DNA of 45,625 bases from Chthoniobacter flavus (GTDB lineage: Bacteria > Verrucomicrobiota > Verrucomicrobiia > Chthoniobacterales > Chthoniobacteraceae). A program made the translations under genes and the position numbers. The stretch covers positions 1 through 45,625 of the forward strand of contig CAMAUX010000044.1 of the NCBI GenBank assembly GCA_945861435.1, read 5' to 3'. This document shows positions 1 through 38,627 of the stretch, piece by piece (the first letter of the stretch is position 1; every line of letters begins with the position of its first letter). Below the pieces are notes generated by a model. That model was given only the letters and a program-made list of their open reading frames with translations. It ran no database searches and was not told where the DNA came from.

Positions 1-3000
1 CGCTCGACTGCGGAGGACACGGCGCTCGCCCTCACCCTCGCGGGATCGGATCCTGAGAACAATCCGCTCACGTACGCGGTGGCGGTCGGCCCGCTGCACG
101 GCACGCTGAGCGGCACGGGCGCCGCGCTCATTTACACGCCGGAACTCAACTACAACGGCGCCGACAGCTTCACCTTCACCGTGAACGATGGGGCGTCGAC
201 ATCGGATCCCGCCACGGTGCTGCTCACCGTGACGCCGGTGAACGATGCACCTGTGGTTGCCACGCCGATCCCCGCCCAGGGAATCGCCTTTGGTGCGTCG
301 TTCAATTATCAGGTCCCTGCAGTCACCTTCTCCGATGTGGATGCGGGCGACACACTGACCTTGAGTGCGAGCGGGTTGCCGGCTGGAGTCACGTTCGCCG
401 CAGCCACGAGAACGTTCAGCGGCACGCCGACCGCTTCCGGGATGTTCACGATCACGGTCGCCGCCACGGATTCCGCCGGGGCGAGCGTGAGCACTTCCCT
501 GATGTTGGGCGTGGGCAATGGCGCGCCGAGCGCGCTGGCGCAGAACCTCTCGACGGCGGAAGACACGCCGCTGGCCATCACCCTCACTGGCACGGATCCT
601 GAGAACAACCCGCTCACGTACTCGGTGGTGACCAGTCCGCTGCACGGCACGCTGACAGGCACCGGTGCCGCGCGCACCTACACGCCGGCGCTCAACTACA
701 ACGGGCCCGACAGCTTCACCTTCCGTGCGAACGATGGCGCGACCAATTCGTTGCCGGCCACCGTGACGATCAACGTCACCTCAGTGAACGATGTGCCGGC
801 GGTTTCCTCTCCGATCCAGAACCGGAGCATCGTTTTTGGATCGGCCTTCAACTACCAGATCCCCGCAGGCACCTTCTCCGATGCGGATGCGGGCGACGCG
901 CTGGTGCTGAGTGCGAGCGGGTTGCCCGCCGGAGTCACCTTCAACGCAGCCACGGGCACGTTCAGTGGCACGCCCACGGTTGCGGGCGCATTCACGATCA
1001 CGGTCACCGCGACGGACTCCGTCGGTGCGAGTGTGAGCAGCCCCTTCACCCTCACGATCAGCAACACGGCTCCGAGCGTGCAGGGCCAGAACCGCTCGCT
1101 GGCGGAAGACACTGCGCTGGCGATCACCCTTGTGGGTTCTGATGCTGAGAACAACCCGATCACCTACACGATGGTGACCAGTCCGCAGCATGGGACGTTG
1201 AGCGGCAGCGGCGCCTCGCGCACCTACACGCCGGCTCCCAACTACAACGGCCCGGACGGCTTCACCTTCACCGCCAGCGACGGCGCGTCGACCTCCGTGC
1301 TCGCGACCGTGTTGATCACCGTGACCCCTGTGAATGATGTGCCGGTGGTGCTGACGCCGATCCCGGACCAAGGCATTGCCTTCGGTGCAAACTTCGACTT
1401 CCAAGTGCCGGCAGACACCTTCTACGACGCTGATATCGGCGACACCCTCACCCTCAGTGCGAGCGGGTTGCCTGCTGGTGTGACTTTCACCCCGGCGACA
1501 GGCAGCTTCAGCGGAAAGCCCACTGTTCCGGCCACGTACATCATCACGGTCCGTGCGACAGATTCCGCTTCCACGAGCGCGAGCAGTTCCCTCCAGCTGA
1601 TTGTGGGTAATGCCGCGCCGACTGCACAGGCACAGAGCGGCTCGACGGCGGAAGACACGCCGCTAGCAATCACCCTCGTGGGGGCCGATCTTGAGGATAA
1701 TCCGCTCACCTACACGGTGGTGACCAATCCGCGGCATGGCACGCTGAGCGGCACTGGTTCCACCCGCACCTACACGCCGGCGCTCAACTACAACGGGACC
1801 GACAGCTTCACCTTCCGAGTGAACGATGGCGCGACCAACTCGGCTCCCGCCACCGTGTCGCTCACCATCACCCCAGTGAACGATGCACCGGTGGTCGCCA
1901 CGCCCATCCAGGTCCCGAGCATCGCCTACGGATCGCCCTTCAATTATCAGGTGCCCGGCAGCACATTCTCCGATCCGGACGCGGGCGACACGCTGGCGTT
2001 CAGTGCGGTCGGGATGCCCGCCGGCGTGCTGTTCAACGCGGCCACGGCCACGTTCAGTGGAACACCGGTGGCGCCCGGTGTGTTCACGATGACGGTGACC
2101 GCGACTGACTCTGCATCGGAGAGCGTGAGCAACTCCTTCAACCTTGAGGTCACCAACACTGCACCGGTCGCGCAGGCTCAGAATATCTCCATGTCGGAGG
2201 ACGACGAACTCCCGCTGGGCATCACGCTGAGGGCCACCGATCACGAGAACAATCCGCTCACTTACCAGGTGGTCACCCGCCCGCGGCACGGCACGCTCAG
2301 CGGCACCGATGCTGCCCTCACCTACACGCCGTTCCCGGATTTCCACGGCACCGACCGGTTCACCTTCACCGCCAATGACGGAGCTGCCACCTCCACGGCC
2401 GCGACGGTGACGATCACGGTGAACGGCGTCAACGACACCCCCACGCTCGGCAGCGTGCTCGAGGGCACACCGCAGTTGGTGGGTGCCGTCGCTTCGGGCG
2501 CGGGTGCATCGGGAGTAGCGGTTGCTGGTGGGCGTGCCTATGTGGCGGCGGGCGACGAGGGGTTGCGGATCGTCGACATCACCAGCTCCACCCATCCCGT
2601 TCTCCTTGGCGTCGCCGTCGGGAGCGGATTTCCCGAGCGCGTGGCAGTCAGTGGCAACTACGCCTATGTGACCGGCGCCTCCGGCCTCGATGTGTTCAAC
2701 ATCGCCGATTCCACCCTGCCTTCCCTTGTCGGCCACATCAGCCTCGGCGGGTATGCCCGTGGCATTGTGGTGCGCGGCACCCTCGCCTACATCGCCGCCG
2801 GCAACGCAGGCCTCCAGATCGTGGATGTCAGCACTCCCGCCGCTCCAATCCTGCGGGGCACCTGCGACACCACCGGTCTGGCATGGGGAGTCGCATTGAA
2901 GGGCAACACCGCCTTCGTCACTGCCTTCCTCTCGGAGGCCACCGGGTCGGGTGCGGCAGGCCTCCGTGCCATCAACATCAGCAACCCTGCAAGCCCCGCG

Positions 3001-4971
3001 CTCGTGGGTTCCGCAGCGATCGGCGTTCCGGGCACCGCTTCGAGCGCCATCGCATGCAGCGGCAATCGCGTCTTCGTGGTGGACACCGGCGGATCGCTCC
3101 ATGCATTCGACGCCACCAATCCTGCGGTCCTCACCGAGGTGTCCACGCTAGCCGGCCTCGGAACCCCGCTGGGCCTCGCCGTCAACGGGCGTTACGCCTA
3201 TGTGGCCGACTTCGGCGGCACGGTTCGCGTGATCGATGTGAGCGCTCCTGCGACGCTCGCATTGAAGGCCAGCGTGCCCTCTGGCGGCCAGCCCTCCGAC
3301 CTCGTGCTTCGCGGCAACCGCGTCTATGTGGCGGCATTCGCCCAGGGCCTGGAAGTGATCGAAAGCGCCTTCGCATTCGACGACATCGTGATCGACGAGG
3401 ATGCCCCTGAACAGGTGGTGACCCTCTCCGGGGTCGGCGATGGCGATGACGGACTTCAGGAGCTCTCCTTCGCCATCTCCACCAGCGACGCGAACCTGCT
3501 CAGCAACCTCTCGGTGACCGCGGGCGAAATCCGATTCACGCCCGTCCCGGATGCGAACGGGACGGCGACCATCACCGTGCGAGCGTCGGACGACAGCTCC
3601 ATCGGCGGCCTCGGTTCCACGCTTTACGTTCAGCGTTCCTTCACGGTCGTTGTGAACTCGGTGAACGACACGCCCGTGCTCACGGCACCCGCGTCGATCA
3701 CGGTGCAAAAAGGATTCCGCGAGGACCTCGCAGCGGGGCTCGCCGGCTTGAGCGTAACGGACGCCGATCCTTTGCAGACGCTCACGCTCACCGCCACTGT
3801 CGATGCGGGATCCCTGCAGGCTTTCACGGCAGGGGGCGTGACCGCGGTGCAGGTGAATTCGACAACAACCAGCCTTACCGGCACCGCCACCCAGATCGCT
3901 GCATATCTCGCAGCAGGCCGCCTCCGGTACGTGATGCCGGAGCAGGGGACCGCGACGCTCGGCGTTCATGTCGAAGATTCCGACGGCGCGGCACCGGCTG
4001 ACCAATCGGTGCCGCTCGTCATCCTTGAGTCCTCGCCTGTGAAATCCGTGTTCATGTCGGGTCTCACCGAGATGTCGTTCAATGCATGGGATCATCCCGA
4101 TGCTCCCACAAACGATGGCACGTGGACTGTGAGCCTCTCCCCGTGGACCCTCTTCTACGGCAGCGCGACTCGCATCGAAGCCAGTCGTTTCCGTTACCGC
4201 CCCTCCCGTCAGTTCCTTGGGAAGGTGCTTTATGAGGCAGTACCGGTGACCTTTACCCGCAACAATGGCGAGGTCGTGGAGGTCGTGTTCATGATGCGTC
4301 CCTACGCGGATATCGCGGGTCCCTTCCAGGCGCTGGTGGGCGATGACAGCGGAACCCGGGGGCGGCTCACGCTCACGCTCACGCGTCTGGGCTCCGCCAC
4401 CGGGCAGATCGAGATCGACGGCCAGACCATTCCCTTCCTCTACGACATGAAAAAGCCCAAGACCGTGAGTCTGAGGGTGGCGGGGAAGACGGCTGGCCTT
4501 CAGCTCGGATACGATGAGCGTGAAGATGCGTGGTCCGCCACACTCACCGCCCCGGGTTCGGCCAGCGTTCCGGCGCTTTCTGTGAGGGATTCCGGTGGGC
4601 TGCAGCGCTGCGCCACCCGCGCCGAAGACTTCGTGACGGGGAGGCATGTGCTCACGCTCGCGGATGAGGGTTCCTCTTTGGGCAGCGCAACGCTGACAGT
4701 CTCGTCGCGTGCTGCTGTTTTCATTCTCGGAAAACTTCCTGATGGCCGCAGCTTCAGCTCCTCCCTCCGGATGCGCGAAGCAGACCTCGGCATTTCCGTC
4801 TACCGCTGGCAGGGGATCGCCGCCACGCCGAGACGGTGGCTCTCGGGAGAGCTTGAGGTGGCCCCTGTGAGCGGAGATATCTCCGGCCTCCTCAAGGTGC
4901 GCACAGGCATCGGCCCCGCTTCCGAGGTGAGCGTCTCGGAGCCCGTCCCGCCTCCGGTCCAAAAGCCTTGA
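1..4971 (+). CDS. Giant repeat surface protein, 3' part (5' end outside window)
   Basis: The frame is open from base 1, so the true start lies upstream; 1656 codons are visible. Up to about codon 810 it alternates cadherin-like/Big_9-type modules (each with AEDT, ENNPLTY, HGTLSG, YTP, FTF and DG motifs) with putative-Ig (He_PIG-type) modules (GLPAGVTF, FSGTP, TDS). Codons about 821-1124 hold LVIVD-type repeats (AYVA, GL.IVDIS) expected to form a beta propeller. More Ig-like modules follow, then a C-terminal beta-rich region around codons 1430-1640. There is no membrane anchor or obvious sorting signal at the C-terminus, which ends in VQKP. Seen: the repeats and domain order. Known: such proteins are usually secreted or cell-surface adhesins. 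Inferred: an extracellular adhesion or matrix role; the ligand is unknown. Confidence 0.9.
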   Translation, partial: RSTAEDTALALTLAGSDPENNPLTYAVAVGPLHGTLSGTGAALIYTPELNYNGADSFTFTVNDGASTSDPATVLLTVTPVNDAPVVATPIPAQGIAFGASFNYQVPAVTFSDVDAGDTLTLSASGLPAGVTFAAATRTFSGTPTASGMFTITVAATDSAGASVSTSLMLGVGNGAPSALAQNLSTAEDTPLAITLTGTDPENNPLTYSVVTSPLHGTLTGTGAARTYTPALNYNGPDSFTFRANDGATNSLPATVTINVTSVNDVPAVSSPIQNRSIVFGSAFNYQIPAGTFSDADAGDALVLSASGLPAGVTFNAATGTFSGTPTVAGAFTITVTATDSVGASVSSPFTLTISNTAPSVQGQNRSLAEDTALAITLVGSDAENNPITYTMVTSPQHGTLSGSGASRTYTPAPNYNGPDGFTFTASDGASTSVLATVLITVTPVNDVPVVLTPIPDQGIAFGANFDFQVPADTFYDADIGDTLTLSASGLPAGVTFTPATGSFSGKPTVPATYIITVRATDSASTSASSSLQLIVGNAAPTAQAQSGSTAEDTPLAITLVGADLEDNPLTYTVVTNPRHGTLSGTGSTRTYTPALNYNGTDSFTFRVNDGATNSAPATVSLTITPVNDAPVVATPIQVPSIAYGSPFNYQVPGSTFSDPDAGDTLAFSAVGMPAGVLFNAATATFSGTPVAPGVFTMTVTATDSASESVSNSFNLEVTNTAPVAQAQNISMSEDDELPLGITLRATDHENNPLTYQVVTRPRHGTLSGTDAALTYTPFPDFHGTDRFTFTANDGAATSTAATVTITVNGVNDTPTLGSVLEGTPQLVGAVASGAGASGVAVAGGRAYVAAGDEGLRIVDITSSTHPVLLGVAVGSGFPERVAVSGNYAYVTGASGLDVFNIADSTLPSLVGHISLGGYARGIVVRGTLAYIAAGNAGLQIVDVSTPAAPILRGTCDTTGLAWGVALKGNTAFVTAFLSEATGSGAAGLRAINISNPASPALVGSAAIGVPGTASSAIACSGNRVFVVDTGGSLHAFDATNPAVLTEVSTLAGLGTPLGLAVNGRYAYVADFGGTVRVIDVSAPATLALKASVPSGGQPSDLVLRGNRVYVAAFAQGLEVIESAFAFDDIVIDEDAPEQVVTLSGVGDGDDGLQELSFAISTSDANLLSNLSVTAGEIRFTPVPDANGTATITVRASDDSSIGGLGSTLYVQRSFTVVVNSVNDTPVLTAPASITVQKGFREDLAAGLAGLSVTDADPLQTLTLTATVDAGSLQAFTAGGVTAVQVNSTTTSLTGTATQIAAYLAAGRLRYVMPEQGTATLGVHVEDSDGAAPADQSVPLVILESSPVKSVFMSGLTEMSFNAWDHPDAPTNDGTWTVSLSPWTLFYGSATRIEASRFRYRPSRQFLGKVLYEAVPVTFTRNNGEVVEVVFMMRPYADIAGPFQALVGDDSGTRGRLTLTLTRLGSATGQIEIDGQTIPFLYDMKKPKTVSLRVAGKTAGLQLGYDEREDAWSATLTAPGSASVPALSVRDSGGLQRCATRAEDFVTGRHVLTLADEGSSLGSATLTVSSRAAVFILGKLPDGRSFSSSLRMREADLGISVYRWQGIAATPRRWLSGELEVAPVSGDISGLLKVRTGIGPASEVSVSEPVPPPVQKP
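4..2187 (+). repeat. Four 546-bp coding tandem repeats
   Basis: The segment coding S-T-A-E-D-T or a variant recurs at bases 4, 550, 1096, 1642 and 2188, a constant spacing of 546 bp (182 codons). Each unit carries one cadherin-like plus one He_PIG-like module. A partial fifth unit follows 2188. The absence of any indel across four units points to relatively recent amplification or to gene conversion, although the units have diverged in sequence. Confidence 0.9.
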
Positions 4972-15189: not shown

Positions 15190-16881
15190 ATGAGTGCCGC
15201 GCCCAAGATATTGCTGATATCTGATTTTAATATCGCGAATCTTGCAGCGCTGATCAGTAACGACGAGAGCGAGCCGAGTTGCGCCGTCACCATCGCCCCT
15301 TTCGGACAGGTTGATCAGACCCTGATTGATCACCGGTCCGCCTCTTGGATGGAGACGCCTGATGCGGCGTTTGTGTGGACACAGCCGCACGTGGAAATTC
15401 CCTCGTTCGCGCGTTTGGTTGCGAACCAACCGGTGGAGCAGGAGGTGCTCGTGGGTGAGGTGGAGCAGTTCGCCCGTTTGCTCATCGCGGCCAGTGGGCG
15501 CCTGAAGCACCTCTTTGTGGCAACATGGGCCGTCCCGCCGTGGGTGCGGGGGTTGGGTCCTCTGGACATGCGTTCCAGCGGGGGGATTGGCGCTGCCCTG
15601 CTGCTGATGAACCACAGCCTTGTTCAGGTGCTTGAGAAAGAGGCCGGCATTCATGTGCTCGATGCACGGAGATGGATCGAGGTGTGCGGGGGGGGCAGCT
15701 TCAGTCCCAAGCTCTGGTACAATTCCAAGACGCCATTCAACACGGCCGTGTTCATGCAAGCCGCGGTGGAGTTGAAGGCGTCTTTGAGGGCTCTGGCTGG
15801 CGGTGCCCGGAAGTTGATCGTCACCGATCTGGACGACACATTGTGGGGGGGAGTGGTGGGGGATGTCGGTTGGGAAAACCTCTCGGTCGGCGGGCATAGC
15901 GCCGAGGGTGAAGCCCGTGTGGATTTCCAACGGGCCCTCAAGGGGCTTTCCAACCGCGGCATCCTGCTGGCCATCGCGAGTAAGAATCAGGAGTCGGTTG
16001 CACTCGAGGCCTTGGAACGACATCCGGAGATGGTCCTTCGATCAGCTGATTTCGCCGGCTGGCGCATCAACTGGCAGGACAAGGCAGCCAACATTGCATC
16101 GCTCGCCCAAGAGTTAAATCTCGGTCTCCAGTCGGTGGTGTTCATCGACGACAACCCGGCCGAAAGAGGGAGGGTGAGGGAAGCGTTGCCGGAAGTCTTC
16201 GTGCCGGACTGGCCCGAGTCGCCTCTTCTTTACCCCAGCGCCCTCGGATCTCTCACGTGCTTTGACCCGGGATCGATCAGTCAGGAGGATCGCGACCGCG
16301 CGGGGAGTTACCAGCAGGAGCGGCAAAGGCGGTCCTCGAATCCGTTGGTGGGATCGATGGACGAGTGGCTTTTGAGTCTGGAACTGCGGGTGGTTGCCGA
16401 GGAGTTGAGTGCCGCCAATCTGCAGCGGGTGACGCAGTTGCTCAACAAGACCAACCAGATGAACATGTCCACGCGGCGGCTCTCGGAAAAGGAGCTTTCG
16501 CAATGGGTGGAATCCGAGGGGAATCGGTTGTGGGCTTTCAGGGTCATGGACAGGTTTGGCGATTCAGGGTTGACGGGGATCGTCAGCGTTACGACCGCGG
16601 GGGGGGCGGCGGGGATTGTCGATCTCGTGTTGAGTTGCAGAGTCATGGGAAGGAACGTTGAGGACGCGATGCTGCACTTCGTTGTGTCCCAACTCCGGGG
16701 GAGTCCCAACCCGCCCGCGCTTCTCAAAGCCCGGTATGTGCCGACGGCGAAGAATGCTCCGTGCCTTGAGTTTCTGAGCAGGTCGCAGCTTTTGCGGAGC
16801 GAAGGCGACCCTCATGATTTCTCATGGGCTTGCGAGGATGAGTACAAGTGCCCCGCGCATGTTTCGCTCACCTGTCATTAG
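15190..16881 (+). CDS. FkbH-like HAD-superfamily protein (acyl/glyceryl-ACP synthase type)
   Basis: 563 aa. Residues 1-205 are the N-terminal SGNH/alpha-beta region. Residues about 208-350 form the HAD-IIIC domain with the catalytic DLDDTLWGG (Asp213, Asp215) and the distal IDDNPAERGRVRE. The C-terminal third (about 410-530) resembles a GNAT fold (LLNKTNQMN, FRVMDRFGDSG). Known: FkbH proteins take the three-carbon unit of 1,3-bisphosphoglycerate, dephosphorylate it and load glyceryl onto an ACP. An AAGGA-like Shine-Dalgarno site lies 6 bases before the ATG. Inferred: it charges the ACP encoded immediately upstream, giving a small hydroxyacyl group for sugar N-acylation. Confidence 0.9.
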   Translation: MSAAPKILLISDFNIANLAALISNDESEPSCAVTIAPFGQVDQTLIDHRSASWMETPDAAFVWTQPHVEIPSFARLVANQPVEQEVLVGEVEQFARLLIAASGRLKHLFVATWAVPPWVRGLGPLDMRSSGGIGAALLLMNHSLVQVLEKEAGIHVLDARRWIEVCGGGSFSPKLWYNSKTPFNTAVFMQAAVELKASLRALAGGARKLIVTDLDDTLWGGVVGDVGWENLSVGGHSAEGEARVDFQRALKGLSNRGILLAIASKNQESVALEALERHPEMVLRSADFAGWRINWQDKAANIASLAQELNLGLQSVVFIDDNPAERGRVREALPEVFVPDWPESPLLYPSALGSLTCFDPGSISQEDRDRAGSYQQERQRRSSNPLVGSMDEWLLSLELRVVAEELSAANLQRVTQLLNKTNQMNMSTRRLSEKELSQWVESEGNRLWAFRVMDRFGDSGLTGIVSVTTAGGAAGIVDLVLSCRVMGRNVEDAMLHFVVSQLRGSPNPPALLKARYVPTAKNAPCLEFLSRSQLLRSEGDPHDFSWACEDEYKCPAHVSLTCH

Positions 16882-34539: not shown

Positions 34540-36009
34540 ATGAAATTCAGCTGTCCCTCCTGCAACATGCACCTCGTCGCAGAGCCTTCCCTTTCGGGCA
34601 AGCTGGTGCAGTGTCCCGGGTGCAGCCTGAAGTTTCAGGTGCCGAGCTTCGACGCCACGGAGCAGGCTGTGGACGGCTACGGCACAGGCGGTGCGCACAA
34701 GCCACAGCGCAAGGCATGGAAGGAGGAGGATCCTACAAATCCAAACGCCAAGATCAGCGTTGGGATCGGCATTGGCCTCACCTTGATCTGGTTTGCCATT
34801 GTATATCCGTTTCAAGCCGCGCCCGGGAAAGCGACGGGCCTCTACACGGGCATGGAGGTGTTCGCGAACATCTTCTACAAACACTTCACCATCAGCTTCG
34901 CCAACGTCCTCTTTTTCTGCTGGGGCGCTGCGATCCTTTTTCTCAAGCACCGCAAGCTCAAGCGCCAGCGCGATGCCATGCTGCTGGATGTTCTTCCGAT
35001 GGAACTCGGCAAGGAGATCAACGCCCAGAACGTGGGCGCCTTCATCGACCACGTCTACGGCCTGCCGGAACGGCTGCGCGACAGCATGATGGTGAACCGC
35101 ATCCGGAAGGCGCTCGAGTTCTTCGAGGTCCGCCCGAATGTCAGCGACCTCGGGACCCTGATGTCGAGCCAGTCCGGCGTCGATGGCTCGCGCATCGGCG
35201 GCAGTTACATCATCGTGCGCGCCTTTCTCTGGGCGATCCCGCTTCTGGGCTTCATCGGTACGGTCATCGGCCTCTCCCACGCCCTTTCCGGGATGAGTTT
35301 TGCGGAGGTGGAAGACGTGGGGAAGGTCGTCGCCTCCATTTCGAACGTCACGAGCGGACTGGGCACGGCATTCGACGCCACCCTGCTGGGCCTCATTCTC
35401 GCCGTCACCCTGAACTTCCCGCTCAACCAGCTTTCCAAGGAAGAGGACGAGGCTCTCAACGATATCGACGCCTACTGCAACGAGGTTCTCCTGCCGCGGC
35501 TTAATGATGGCAGCGGCGCGGGCGGCGGGGATCTCGGTGCCGTGGCGGACTCGGTGGTGCGCGCGCTCTCCAGCGCCCAGAGCCAGTTCCTCACCGATCT
35601 CAATGCGCTCTCGACCCGCATGCTTGAGTACTCGGACAACCTCGACCGTCGGACCGCCGAGCACCAGCAGGTGGCGCTTCACGAGTTCTCCACCCAGATG
35701 GCTGCGATGCGTTCCCAAGTGGAACACCTGCTCGGCGAAGCCACCCGCCTCACCAATGAGCAGCTCGGCGAATCGACGCGCCTTGCAAACCATCATCTGG
35801 GCGAGTCCACGCGCATCGCCAACGAACATCTCGGTGAATCCGCGCGCGTGGCCAACGAACACCTTGGTGAATCCGCGCGCGTGGCCTCGCTGCATCTCGC
35901 TAGTCTCGACGCCGGCATCCAGTCGCTCAACCGGGTGCTCAAGGATCTCGGCGAAAAGCAGGTGGTCATCCAGCAGGTGAAGAAGAAGGGCTGGTTCAGC
36001 CGCGACTAA
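34540..36009 (+). CDS. Zinc-ribbon plus MotA/TolQ/ExbB proton-channel protein with hendecad-repeat tail
   Basis: 489 aa from the ATG at 34540. Residues 1-32 form a zinc ribbon (Cys5, Cys8, Cys25, Cys28: CPSC and CPGC). Transmembrane segments lie near residues 69-90, 118-135, 224-249 and 277-296. The third and fourth carry the family motifs LLGFIGTVIGL and TAFDATLLGLILAV. Residues 398-452 are five 11-residue repeats (LGESTRLANEH-like) predicted to form a coiled coil or helical rod, ending in KKKGWFSRD. The two following genes encode ExbD/TolR-like partners. Inferred: the pentameric channel of an ion-driven membrane complex. A 237-bp gap precedes it, with no clear promoter. Confidence 0.85.
   Translation: MKFSCPSCNMHLVAEPSLSGKLVQCPGCSLKFQVPSFDATEQAVDGYGTGGAHKPQRKAWKEEDPTNPNAKISVGIGIGLTLIWFAIVYPFQAAPGKATGLYTGMEVFANIFYKHFTISFANVLFFCWGAAILFLKHRKLKRQRDAMLLDVLPMELGKEINAQNVGAFIDHVYGLPERLRDSMMVNRIRKALEFFEVRPNVSDLGTLMSSQSGVDGSRIGGSYIIVRAFLWAIPLLGFIGTVIGLSHALSGMSFAEVEDVGKVVASISNVTSGLGTAFDATLLGLILAVTLNFPLNQLSKEEDEALNDIDAYCNEVLLPRLNDGSGAGGGDLGAVADSVVRALSSAQSQFLTDLNALSTRMLEYSDNLDRRTAEHQQVALHEFSTQMAAMRSQVEHLLGEATRLTNEQLGESTRLANHHLGESTRIANEHLGESARVANEHLGESARVASLHLASLDAGIQSLNRVLKDLGEKQVVIQQVKKKGWFSRD
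35731..35895 (+). repeat. Five 33-bp in-frame repeats
   Basis: Units starting at 35731, 35764, 35797, 35830 and 35863 each encode an LGE(S/A)(T/A)R(L/I/V)(A/T)N-type hendecad. A degenerate sixth start (LASLDAG) is at 35896. The repeat count may vary between strains. Confidence 0.9.
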
Positions 36010-36045
36010 GCATCCGCTACAGGAATTCCCTGCGGTTCTCTTTGC

Positions 36046-37095
36046 ATGGCAAAACGCCGACACAGACCCACGGAAGAGCTGATGATGGTGCCGTTCCTGG
36101 ACATCCTCTGCTCGCTCATCGGCGTCCTCATTCTCATCATCGTCACCCTCTGTGTCGCGCAGATGCAGAAGATCAACGGGCGCACCCCGGAGGAGATCGC
36201 GCGATCCGAGGAGCACCTGCGCCTTCTGAAGAAACTGAAGGAGAACGAACAACTCGCCGCCCTTGTGCAACCGAAGCGCGAGGCTCTCGAAAAGCTCAAG
36301 CCCAAGGCCGCGGAAAAGGAGGAGAGCGCCGTCAAACTCCGCACGCTGCTCACCAGCGCGATGACCAATCAGCAGCAAAACCTTGAGCGCGAGCAGAAGC
36401 TCGTCAAGGAACTTGATAACCTCAACCTCGAGATCAACGGCCTTAAAACCCAGCCCGCGCCGCTGAGCGCGGAGATCGCCTCGCTCACCGAGGAAATCAA
36501 GAAACGCAAACCTCCGGAGCTCAAAGGCCCGGCTGTTGTGGTCCAGCCCGGCGGCTCCGGTCTTGCCAAGGGTTCCAAAGTTTTCTTTGTCGAGGCTTCC
36601 GGCGGTCGGCTCACGTACTACTACGACGAGACCAACAAGGGCACCCTCAGCGCCGCGCCAGATGTCATCGCCGCCGATGCCGGATTTAATCAGTACCTTG
36701 CCGCGGTCAAAAATGTCGCCAGCAGCAAACTCATGTTCCTCCTGCGCGAGGATGGCATGGGCGCCTACAACAACGGCGCCGGCTGGGCTCAGGCTAACCA
36801 TGGGTTCGTATCCGGTCAGGTGACCAAGCTCCCGCTTCCAGGCCGCGGAGAGATTGATCTGCGCATGTTCCGCGATTTCCTCGGGACGCTCCCTCCGCCT
36901 CCGCCTGTAGAAAAGAAACCCGCACCCCCAGCCGCACCTGCGACCGCACCTGGGACCGCACCGGCGCCGCCCGGAGCACCCCCGGTGCCGGCAGCGAAGC
37001 CCGCTGCACCACCAGTACCACCTGCCGCACCACCGGCTGCGAATCCGGCCAAACCACCCGCCCCGCCCGCCGCACCGGTGCCCAAGCAGGGCTGA
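36046..37095 (+). CDS. ExbD/TolR-like membrane protein with coiled coil and Pro/Ala tail (first)
   Basis: 349 aa. A short cytoplasmic N-terminus (MAKRRHRPTEEL) is followed by one transmembrane helix beginning VPFLDILCSLIGVLIL. The Asp at its start fits the proton-binding Asp of ExbD/TolR/MotB. Residues about 55-160 are Lys/Glu-rich coiled coil, 175-285 a globular region (VFFVEASGGRLTYYYD), and 285-349 a Pro/Ala-rich tail of the kind that spans or binds the cell wall. No OmpA-type peptidoglycan-binding domain is present. It is 36 bp after the TolQ-like gene and 14 bp before the next, so one operon. Confidence 0.75.
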   Translation: MAKRRHRPTEELMMVPFLDILCSLIGVLILIIVTLCVAQMQKINGRTPEEIARSEEHLRLLKKLKENEQLAALVQPKREALEKLKPKAAEKEESAVKLRTLLTSAMTNQQQNLEREQKLVKELDNLNLEINGLKTQPAPLSAEIASLTEEIKKRKPPELKGPAVVVQPGGSGLAKGSKVFFVEASGGRLTYYYDETNKGTLSAAPDVIAADAGFNQYLAAVKNVASSKLMFLLREDGMGAYNNGAGWAQANHGFVSGQVTKLPLPGRGEIDLRMFRDFLGTLPPPPPVEKKPAPPAAPATAPGTAPAPPGAPPVPAAKPAAPPVPPAAPPAANPAKPPAPPAAPVPKQG

Positions 37096-37109
37096 TCCCT
37101 TTTCACTCC

Positions 37110-38267
37110 ATGGCCCGCCGCAAACCCCATCACGAAGAGGAGCTGCCCTTTGTTGCCCTCATGGACACGATGACGAACGTGGTCGGTGTTCTCATCATCG
37201 TGCTCGTCGTGGTCGGCATCGGTCTTGCCAAGTCGGTGAAGAAAGTGCTCTCCGAACTCCCGCCGGTCACCGTCGAGGAGCACGAGGAGTTGAAGAAGAA
37301 GGTGGCCGACAAAACTCCGAAGGACGATCCCAGGAAGCTCGATGAAGAGCTCGCGAAGTTGGAGGAAGAACTGAAGAAGGCGACTGCGGATCTCTCTGAT
37401 CTTGAGACCACCAAGGAGAAGCAGAACATCAAGGTGATCGACTTCGATTCCCTCCAGAAGCAGATCGAGGAACGCCGCAAACAACGCGACAAGCTCAAGG
37501 AGACCGTGGCCAAGCTGCTGGCTGAGGTCGACCAGATGAAGGCGCGCTTGGACCAGACGCCGGTCTACCAACCGCCGCCGCCCACGGTCGTGAAGCTCCC
37601 GAACCCGCGTCCGATGCCCGATCAGGCGCAGTTGCAGCGGTTTCTGATCAGCGGGAAGCGCATCATCTATCTCAACGAGGAGGACACCGTGGAACTGGTG
37701 GAGCGCGAACTCAAACAGGCGGATGCTTCCATCGCCCTCAGTCATGAAACCGTCAAGGGACCCGACGGCAAACCGGCCATGCAGCGCGAGAAATCGGGTC
37801 GTCTCTCGCCGGTGCGGCGCACGGTTTACGACCTGAAAAAGTTCACTGACTACTTCACGCGGCGCCGCCTCAGCTCGCGCGATGCCGCCCTTCAGGTAAG
37901 CCAGGTTCCCAATTCGAACCGGATCCAGATGCGGATCACCCCGACACCGACAGCCGGCGAGGATTTGGAAAAAGCCCGCGTGTTCATCTCCACGTTCCAG
38001 AGTCAGCTTCGGAAGATGAAGAGCGACCCGAAGGCCGTCGCGTGGTTCATTGTCTACAAGGACTCCATTGAGACGTACCTTGCGCTGCGGGAGGTGGTGG
38101 ACCAGCTCGGCGTCCCTGCTGGTTGGGAACTCACTGGCAACGCGTTCTTCACACGCTGGCTTCCCGGCGAATACACGGTCGCCTTCACGCCGGTCGCGGC
38201 GCCTGCGGTCCCTGCAGGTGCTGCCCCCACCGTCACCATCGCCCCGCCCAAAGCCACCCTCGACTAG
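37110..38267 (+). CDS. ExbD/TolR-like membrane protein with coiled coil (second)
   Basis: 385 aa. N-terminus MARRKPHHEEEL, then a transmembrane segment ALMDTMTNVVGVLIIVLVVVG (split at the Asp) with Asp in the same place as in the upstream paralogue. Residues about 55-170 are coiled coil, then a Pro-rich hinge (QTPVYQPPPP) and a C-terminal globular domain (about 195-365; FLISGKRIIYLNE, WFIVYKDSIETYLALREVV). The N-terminal third resembles the 36046-37095 product, the C-terminal domain does not. Inferred: the two form a heteromeric pair inside one TolQ-like pentamer. The substrate or motion driven is unknown. Confidence 0.75.
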   Translation: MARRKPHHEEELPFVALMDTMTNVVGVLIIVLVVVGIGLAKSVKKVLSELPPVTVEEHEELKKKVADKTPKDDPRKLDEELAKLEEELKKATADLSDLETTKEKQNIKVIDFDSLQKQIEERRKQRDKLKETVAKLLAEVDQMKARLDQTPVYQPPPPTVVKLPNPRPMPDQAQLQRFLISGKRIIYLNEEDTVELVERELKQADASIALSHETVKGPDGKPAMQREKSGRLSPVRRTVYDLKKFTDYFTRRRLSSRDAALQVSQVPNSNRIQMRITPTPTAGEDLEKARVFISTFQSQLRKMKSDPKAVAWFIVYKDSIETYLALREVVDQLGVPAGWELTGNAFFTRWLPGEYTVAFTPVAAPAVPAGAAPTVTIAPPKATLD

Positions 38268-38270
38268 CCC

Positions 38271-38347
38271 CCCCGCGCAATCCCCGCGCAATCCCCGCGA
38301 GATCCCCGCGAGATCCCCGCGAGATCCCCGCGAGATCCCCGCAAGAT
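38271..38347. repeat. Seven-unit 11-bp tandem repeat
   Basis: Unit CCCCGCGAGAT: two leading copies are CCCCGCGCAAT, four are identical, the last is CCCCGCAAGAT. It starts three bases after the stop of the second ExbD-like gene. It sits in a 360-bp gap (38268-38627) before the 3' end of the convergent amidohydrolase gene; nothing else was recognised in the gap. Confidence 0.95.
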
Positions 38348-38627
38348 CCCGACGCGCAAGAGCCCCTCTTCGACGAGGCCATGGGCACCGTGCTGAGCCC
38401 ACAACTCCGGCATGCCGGAGGCATGAAAGAAAATTAGCCGGCGGTGGACGCAGGGAACCGCCGGTTTACCACACCCCACGCACTGCGCCCCGGATGGGGC
38501 GCGAGAAGCTGCCCCACCCCCATCCGCCGCACCTGTCTGCGACAAACCCGACCAGTGGAAATGCCCAAGCTCATATCCACAATCATCCCTCAACGAATCC
38601 ACGCAATCCAAGGCCACCCCCGCGCCT

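Follow-up and report, generated by a model that had tools for sequence, protein, structure and literature searches.

Does a bacterial ion motor need two like axle subunits, or can its axle be assembled from two different proteins? Current models of 5:2 motors contain two like axle subunits, each acid-bearing. The question is raised by three consecutive plus-strand genes, here termed A, B, and C, in a 45,625-nucleotide contig from Chthoniobacter flavus (CAMAUX010000044.1; "the window" denotes this whole stretch). An earlier note on this DNA described a TolQ/ExbB/MotA-like channel protein followed by two distinct ExbD-like partners and proposed a heterodimeric rotor. That proposal is partly supported, with strong though indirect evidence for two unlike partners: across the family, A, B, and C change the type of their membrane segments in concert, and loss of the acid in B pairs with an extra acid in C. 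Judged from these sequence patterns, a ring of five A subunits with an obligate B:C heterodimer as its axle, in an ion motor of the 5:2 (MotAB/TolQR/ExbBD) superfamily, appears likely. We lean more narrowly toward the full account, namely a 5:1:1 motor with an obligate heterodimer axle, whose older form would carry its two acids one helical turn apart on one helix and whose membrane core would have been exchanged between lineages as a matched set. The three genes are as follows:

34540–36009, plus strand: gene A, 489 amino acids, MotA/TolQ/ExbB-family channel subunit (PF01618 match and homologues)
36046–37095, plus strand: gene B, 349 amino acids, putative ExbD/TolR-like axle subunit (single hydrophobic segment, AlphaFold model, conserved second gene)
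37110–38267, plus strand: gene C, 385 amino acids, putative ExbD/TolR-like axle subunit (single hydrophobic segment, AlphaFold model, conserved third gene)

The A–B and B–C gaps are 36 and 14 nt, and the A–B–C order with short gaps is kept in 90 complete operon records, which include eight loci fetched twice and hence represent about 82 (~80) distinct operons. Because the same gene order recurs in ~80 distinct operons, a chance arrangement is excluded, and the reading of 34540–38267 as a three-gene unit stands. One scan of GTDB contigs returned 58 loci, all in Verrucomicrobiota; many loci come from metagenome bins. B was found in 19/40 genomes of the family (one weakly) and 40/384 of the class, and C in 24/388 genomes of the phylum, so the system is accessory and patchy. 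B accompanies C in every complete operon found.

B and C each contain one hydrophobic segment, as expected from their description as single-pass proteins, with Asp19 near the segment start in FLDILCSLIGVL (B) and LMDTMTNVVGVL (C). Positions that distinguish the two motor types lie in these segments and in A:

36070–36180, plus strand: B transmembrane segment with Asp19 (36100–36102), the type-switching acid (Asp in type I, Ser in type II)
37140–37253, plus strand: C transmembrane segment with invariant Asp19 (37164–37166) and Val15 (37152–37154; Asp in type II)
34882–34905, plus strand: A His115–Asn122, second hydrophobic segment, type-linked sites (54/54 versus 38/38)

Residues B19/C15/C19 read D/V/D in 52 operon records, including the window (type I), and S/D/D in 38 (type II); with the eight double-fetched loci removed, the counts become 46 and 36. 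C-Asp19 is invariant in the aligned operons. Fixed differences in A accompany the swap (type I to type II: H115R, N122E, and A280T), and A280 adjoins the invariant T281. Among the 90 operon records, no mixed-type operon was found (0 mismatches). The claim that both partners carry an Asp at the helix start therefore holds in the window and fails in the family, where B has Ser in 38/90 records. The earlier note had also named Asp loss in one partner across homologues as evidence against a heterodimer. Such loss literally occurs, yet its coupled pattern favors the heterodimer, and we dropped it as a refutation once the coupling with C-Asp15 was found. Because an acid-free B could not be a homodimeric motor by the known mechanism, B acid loss argues instead against separate homodimers.

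When the A tree is rooted at its midpoint, type I forms one clade nested within type II. The latter is the more widespread form and looks older than type I, an ordering that depends on root placement. A more distant three-gene set in other Verrucomicrobiota, in which an acid-free B-like helix (DLSSFMAILIMTIGAL) accompanies a two-Asp C-like helix (VNLDSFLDIMTCLVGVL), agrees with this ordering. This second motor family, combining a long-tailed ExbB-like protein with the acid-free B-like and the two-Asp C-like protein, was observed at L170 (2895–7762), L089, L091, L092, and L096; its C-like profile matched strongly in ~20/376 genomes.

The type-linked segments are separated in the DNA by parts of the operon that follow a different history. 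In A, the segments fall within one span:

34744–35427, plus strand: A four-hydrophobic-segment span, residues 69–296 (Thr241, Ala280, Thr281), from hydropathy; core of the exchanged tract (~41–345)

The tree of the A membrane core places type I in a single clade (Shimodaira–Hasegawa-like approximate likelihood ratio test, SH-aLRT, 99), whereas the periplasmic trees require 7 type changes for B and 11 for C, or at least 5 and at least 8, respectively, when starred branches are counted; these switch counts depend on the trees used, and the large trees were quick IQ-TREE runs. Among operons with a long C, the A core tree and the B/C helix tree need one change each, versus four in the joined outer parts, all forced by well supported branches. 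In Verrucomicrobiaceae, approximately unbiased (AU) tests from careful runs reject a single type I clade for the outer parts (C, 7.2e-11; B, 6.9e-10; joined, 7.9e-6). Conversely, the membrane parts reject the outer-tree clades (p <= 1.7e-7, with clade groups picked after seeing the data). Several Verrucomicrobiaceae loci (in the range L015–L057) encode a C of 512–518 amino acids, with ~130 extra residues, and include both motor types.

Pairwise identities delimit the exchanged parts. Cross-type identity is ~38–45% in A 42–140, 54–56% in B 1–45, and 50–51% in C 1–40, regardless of similarity elsewhere. In cross-type pairs whose periplasmic domains are at least 75% identical, the sharp drop is confined to A ~41–345, B 1–~100, and C 1–~105. 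For two loci of the same genus, L135 (type I) and L136 (type II), A is 95–100% identical over residues 1–41, mostly 65–100% in the tail, and 25–60% over residues 42–160. Ten loci of both types have upstream flanking genes in common, which places the exchange within one chromosomal site. Types I and II are intermixed in the periplasmic trees of B and C, so the types are not simply two lineages; with one clade per type in the A core, this pattern indicates that the membrane parts of all three proteins were exchanged several times, always together. Segments that lie apart in the DNA and are nevertheless always matched must be under functional constraint.

Beyond the membrane, B and C are more alike than the earlier note supposed when it assigned them different periplasmic domains. 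The parts concerned are the following:

36538–36840, plus strand: B periplasmic TolR-fold domain, residues 165–265 (5by4, Z 8.3)
36892–37092, plus strand: B Pro/Ala-rich C-terminal tail, residues 283–349 (from sequence)
37575–38138, plus strand: C periplasmic TolR-fold domain with insertion, residues 156–343 (5by4, Z 8.9)
38229–38264, plus strand: C C-terminal peptide VTIAPPKATLD behind a Pro/Ala-rich linker (similar ending in many relatives)

AlphaFold models of B and C (predicted local distance difference test scores, 81.5 and 77.9) run from the membrane helix through long periplasmic helices to a compact domain. The best PDB match of both is the periplasmic domain of Escherichia coli TolR (5by4): for B, Z 8.3 over 90 residues with a root-mean-square deviation (rmsd) of 4.8, the next unrelated match scoring 6.0; for C, Z 8.9 over 92 residues with rmsd 3.3, the next unrelated match scoring 5.8. 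Foldseek alone gave no match at E < 1e-3 for either model, and the TolR match is clear only after VIA realignment. In the models, then, the periplasmic domains of B and C share the TolR fold; the two proteins differ in the large insertions of the C domain and the Pro/Ala-rich tail of B. Neither sequence reaches the PF02472 (ExbD/TolR) cut-off of 25.4 bits (B, 10.4 bits; no match listed for C), and Pfam gave no match to an OmpA-like peptidoglycan-binding domain in B or C. PDB sequence profiles for the two proteins returned coiled-coil noise, which for B included weak MotB matches, and were set aside. In the C-terminal peptide of C, I377, P380, K381, and D385 are near-invariant in what we label A2. 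TolR forms a strand-swapped dimer (PMC4646322), which offers a possible model, by analogy, for B:C pairing.

In the proposed motor, five A subunits would form a ring, and the helices of B and C would sit in that same ring as a two-helix axle, with ions binding to carboxylates close to where the axle helices begin. Type I would present one Asp19 per axle helix; type II would combine an acid-free B with a C bearing Asp15 and Asp19, matched by Glu122 and Thr280 in A. The axle would continue into the periplasm as long helices bearing two TolR-fold domains. A shared A ring for the B and C helices is the simplest physical reason for the three-way matching. We infer the ring number, 1:1 pairing, ion binding, rotation, and a periplasmic or outer-membrane target; ion species, rotation, and target are suggested by analogy with the superfamily.

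Three other explanations deserve comparison with the heterodimeric axle. In one, which we regard as unlikely, C alone would form a homodimeric axle (A5C2) and B would be an accessory protein, outside the ring or regulatory, like a TonB/TolA-type transducer. The invariance of C-Asp19, the Pro-rich tail of B, and the absence of an acid from B in 38/90 operon records and in the more distant family all suit this explanation. Against these stand the resemblance of the B helix motif to an ExbD start, with Asp in 52 records; the switching of the B membrane segment together with C-Asp15 and A280; the TolR fold in both B and C; and the B helix itself, in which no SHLS-like His motif was seen. Two homodimeric motors, A5B2 and A5C2, sharing a ring protein would require no new axle type, and matching of each partner to A would also yield joint switching. 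This arrangement seems less probable still: neither type II nor the distant family would give A5B2 an axle acid, yet B still accompanies C in all complete operons found, and the tie between B-Ser19 and C-Asp15 would go unexplained.

The least probable of the three, in our judgment a long shot, is shared ancestry only, in which two old operon lineages later recombined and by chance spared the membrane segments. In its favor, the membrane segments fall into two old lineages, with type I a single clade in A. However, exchanged DNA separates the three segments, and four switches cannot be avoided among 34 operons. Genome G308 (L147, L169) is also pertinent, with A–B and C on different contigs as assembled. 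There, A and B are type I, and the unlinked C is a still-matching chimera: its membrane segment is type I, and its periplasmic part most resembles those of type II relatives in the same family.

Several points weigh against the heterodimeric axle. G308 is perhaps a metagenome bin, in which case the separation of C might be an artefact of assembly, and we treat it as supporting evidence only. Structure prediction covers monomers only. The B and C domains are weakly similar in sequence (hhalign 76%, 43 columns), so their dimerization is proposed by analogy with that of TolR. If B and C were each matched to A, that alone would keep the three segments together without B:C contact; we consider this the weaker alternative because it leaves unexplained why acid loss in B coincides exactly with the presence of two acids in C.

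The remaining features of A agree with the earlier description of a TolQ/ExbB/MotA-like protein with a zinc ribbon and a five-unit tail:

34540–34644, plus strand: A N-terminal zinc ribbon, residues 1–35 (from sequence)
35731–35895, plus strand: A five 11-residue repeats, residues 398–452 (C-terminal tail sequence)

A passes the curated PF01618 (MotA_ExbB) cut-off (41.3 versus 22.9 bits) and has four hydrophobic segments by hydropathy (residues 69–94, 115–136, 219–251, and 270–296). The ribbon motif CPSC...CPGC (C5, C8, C25, and C28) is present in 91/97 A sequences, with exceptions mostly truncated, and tracks overall relatedness, not motor type. Thr241 and Thr281 are invariant (91/91 sequences); judging by their motif, we take them to be equivalent to the conserved pore-helix Thr residues of TolQ/ExbB. 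The ZorA profile NF033915 scores 26 bits against A, below its cut-off of 100. A defense role was considered and rejected, as PADLOC ZorA matches reflect the shared channel domain only and the neighbors are metabolic. Five loci (L047, L052, L054, L058, and L143) encode A subunits of ~850–1180 amino acids, with cytoplasmic tails far longer than that of the window A and recalling ZorA tails.

Upstream of the operon lie a formate transporter, a NuoF-like gene, and a molybdopterin oxidoreductase gene; downstream are an amidohydrolase gene and a ComM-like gene. As the earlier note stated, no OmpA, TonB, or Tol-Pal gene (TolA/TolB/Pal) adjoins the operon in the window; a Zorya effector, TPR, or vWA gene is likewise missing beside it. 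Across the A–B–C family, no conserved neighbor gene hints at function. The same genome contains eight more MotA_ExbB genes. Directly 3' of the gene C stop codon, a tandem 11-bp repeat (CCCCGCGAGAT-like, ~7 copies) spans 38271–38350. Elsewhere in the window, positions 79–4971 encode a 1630-amino-acid protein built of Ig/cadherin-like and LVIVD repeats, and a 563-amino-acid open frame without a Pfam match (15190–16881) lies inside a sugar/polysaccharide gene block that shows a local GC dip (~55% at 23–25 kb).

The view that known systems use one partner type proved too broad. AglRQS of Myxococcus xanthus, like A–B–C, combines a single TolQ-like gene with two different TolR-like ones in a row; the available portions of its descriptions give two TolR-like subunits, both predicted with a helix Asp as in B and C of the window, and state homo- versus heterodimer as undecided (PMC9389320, PMC3169522). 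Unlike B and C, these are short TolR-like proteins matching Pfam ExbD, and the same portions mention neither a zinc ribbon nor long periplasmic helices nor an acid swap. In Planctomycetes–Verrucomicrobia–Chlamydiae (PVC) bacteria, a 2025 study (PMC12204202) noted heterologous tolR-like genes that occur in pairs, accompanied by vWA and TPR genes. As far as the accessible text of that study goes, they resemble A–B–C in the heterologous pair beside a tolQ-like gene and in the PVC group, and differ in the vWA/TPR genes; an acid swap and joint exchange are unreported there. Xanthomonas carries tandem exbD1/exbD2 in one tonB/exbB cluster, with exbD2 dispensable for iron uptake (PMC3551730), and thus shares two ExbD genes per cluster with A–B–C but differs in holding tonB. 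ExbBD and TolQR share the channel family and the TolR-fold periplasmic domain; they have a single partner type, whereas A–B–C has long periplasmic helices and no adjacent TonB, TolA, or Pal gene. ZorAB, a 5:2 ZorA:ZorB complex with one partner type (PMC11890865), likewise pairs a MotA-like channel with a cytoplasmic tail, and A matches the ZorA profile weakly; A–B–C differs in its two partner types and in the lack of an adjoining effector gene. In open-licence literature, we found neither this zinc-ribbon family described nor any account of its acid swap or of the joint exchange.

For AglRQS-type motors, the literature leaves the choice between hetero- and homodimers open (PMC9389320), and the A–B–C family bears on that question. 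It provides natural variants with one acid per helix, or two and none, together with matching ring residues. These variants name the residues to swap and predict failure for single swaps and function for triple ones. The heterodimer question thereby becomes directly testable, as does the need for two acid-bearing helices.

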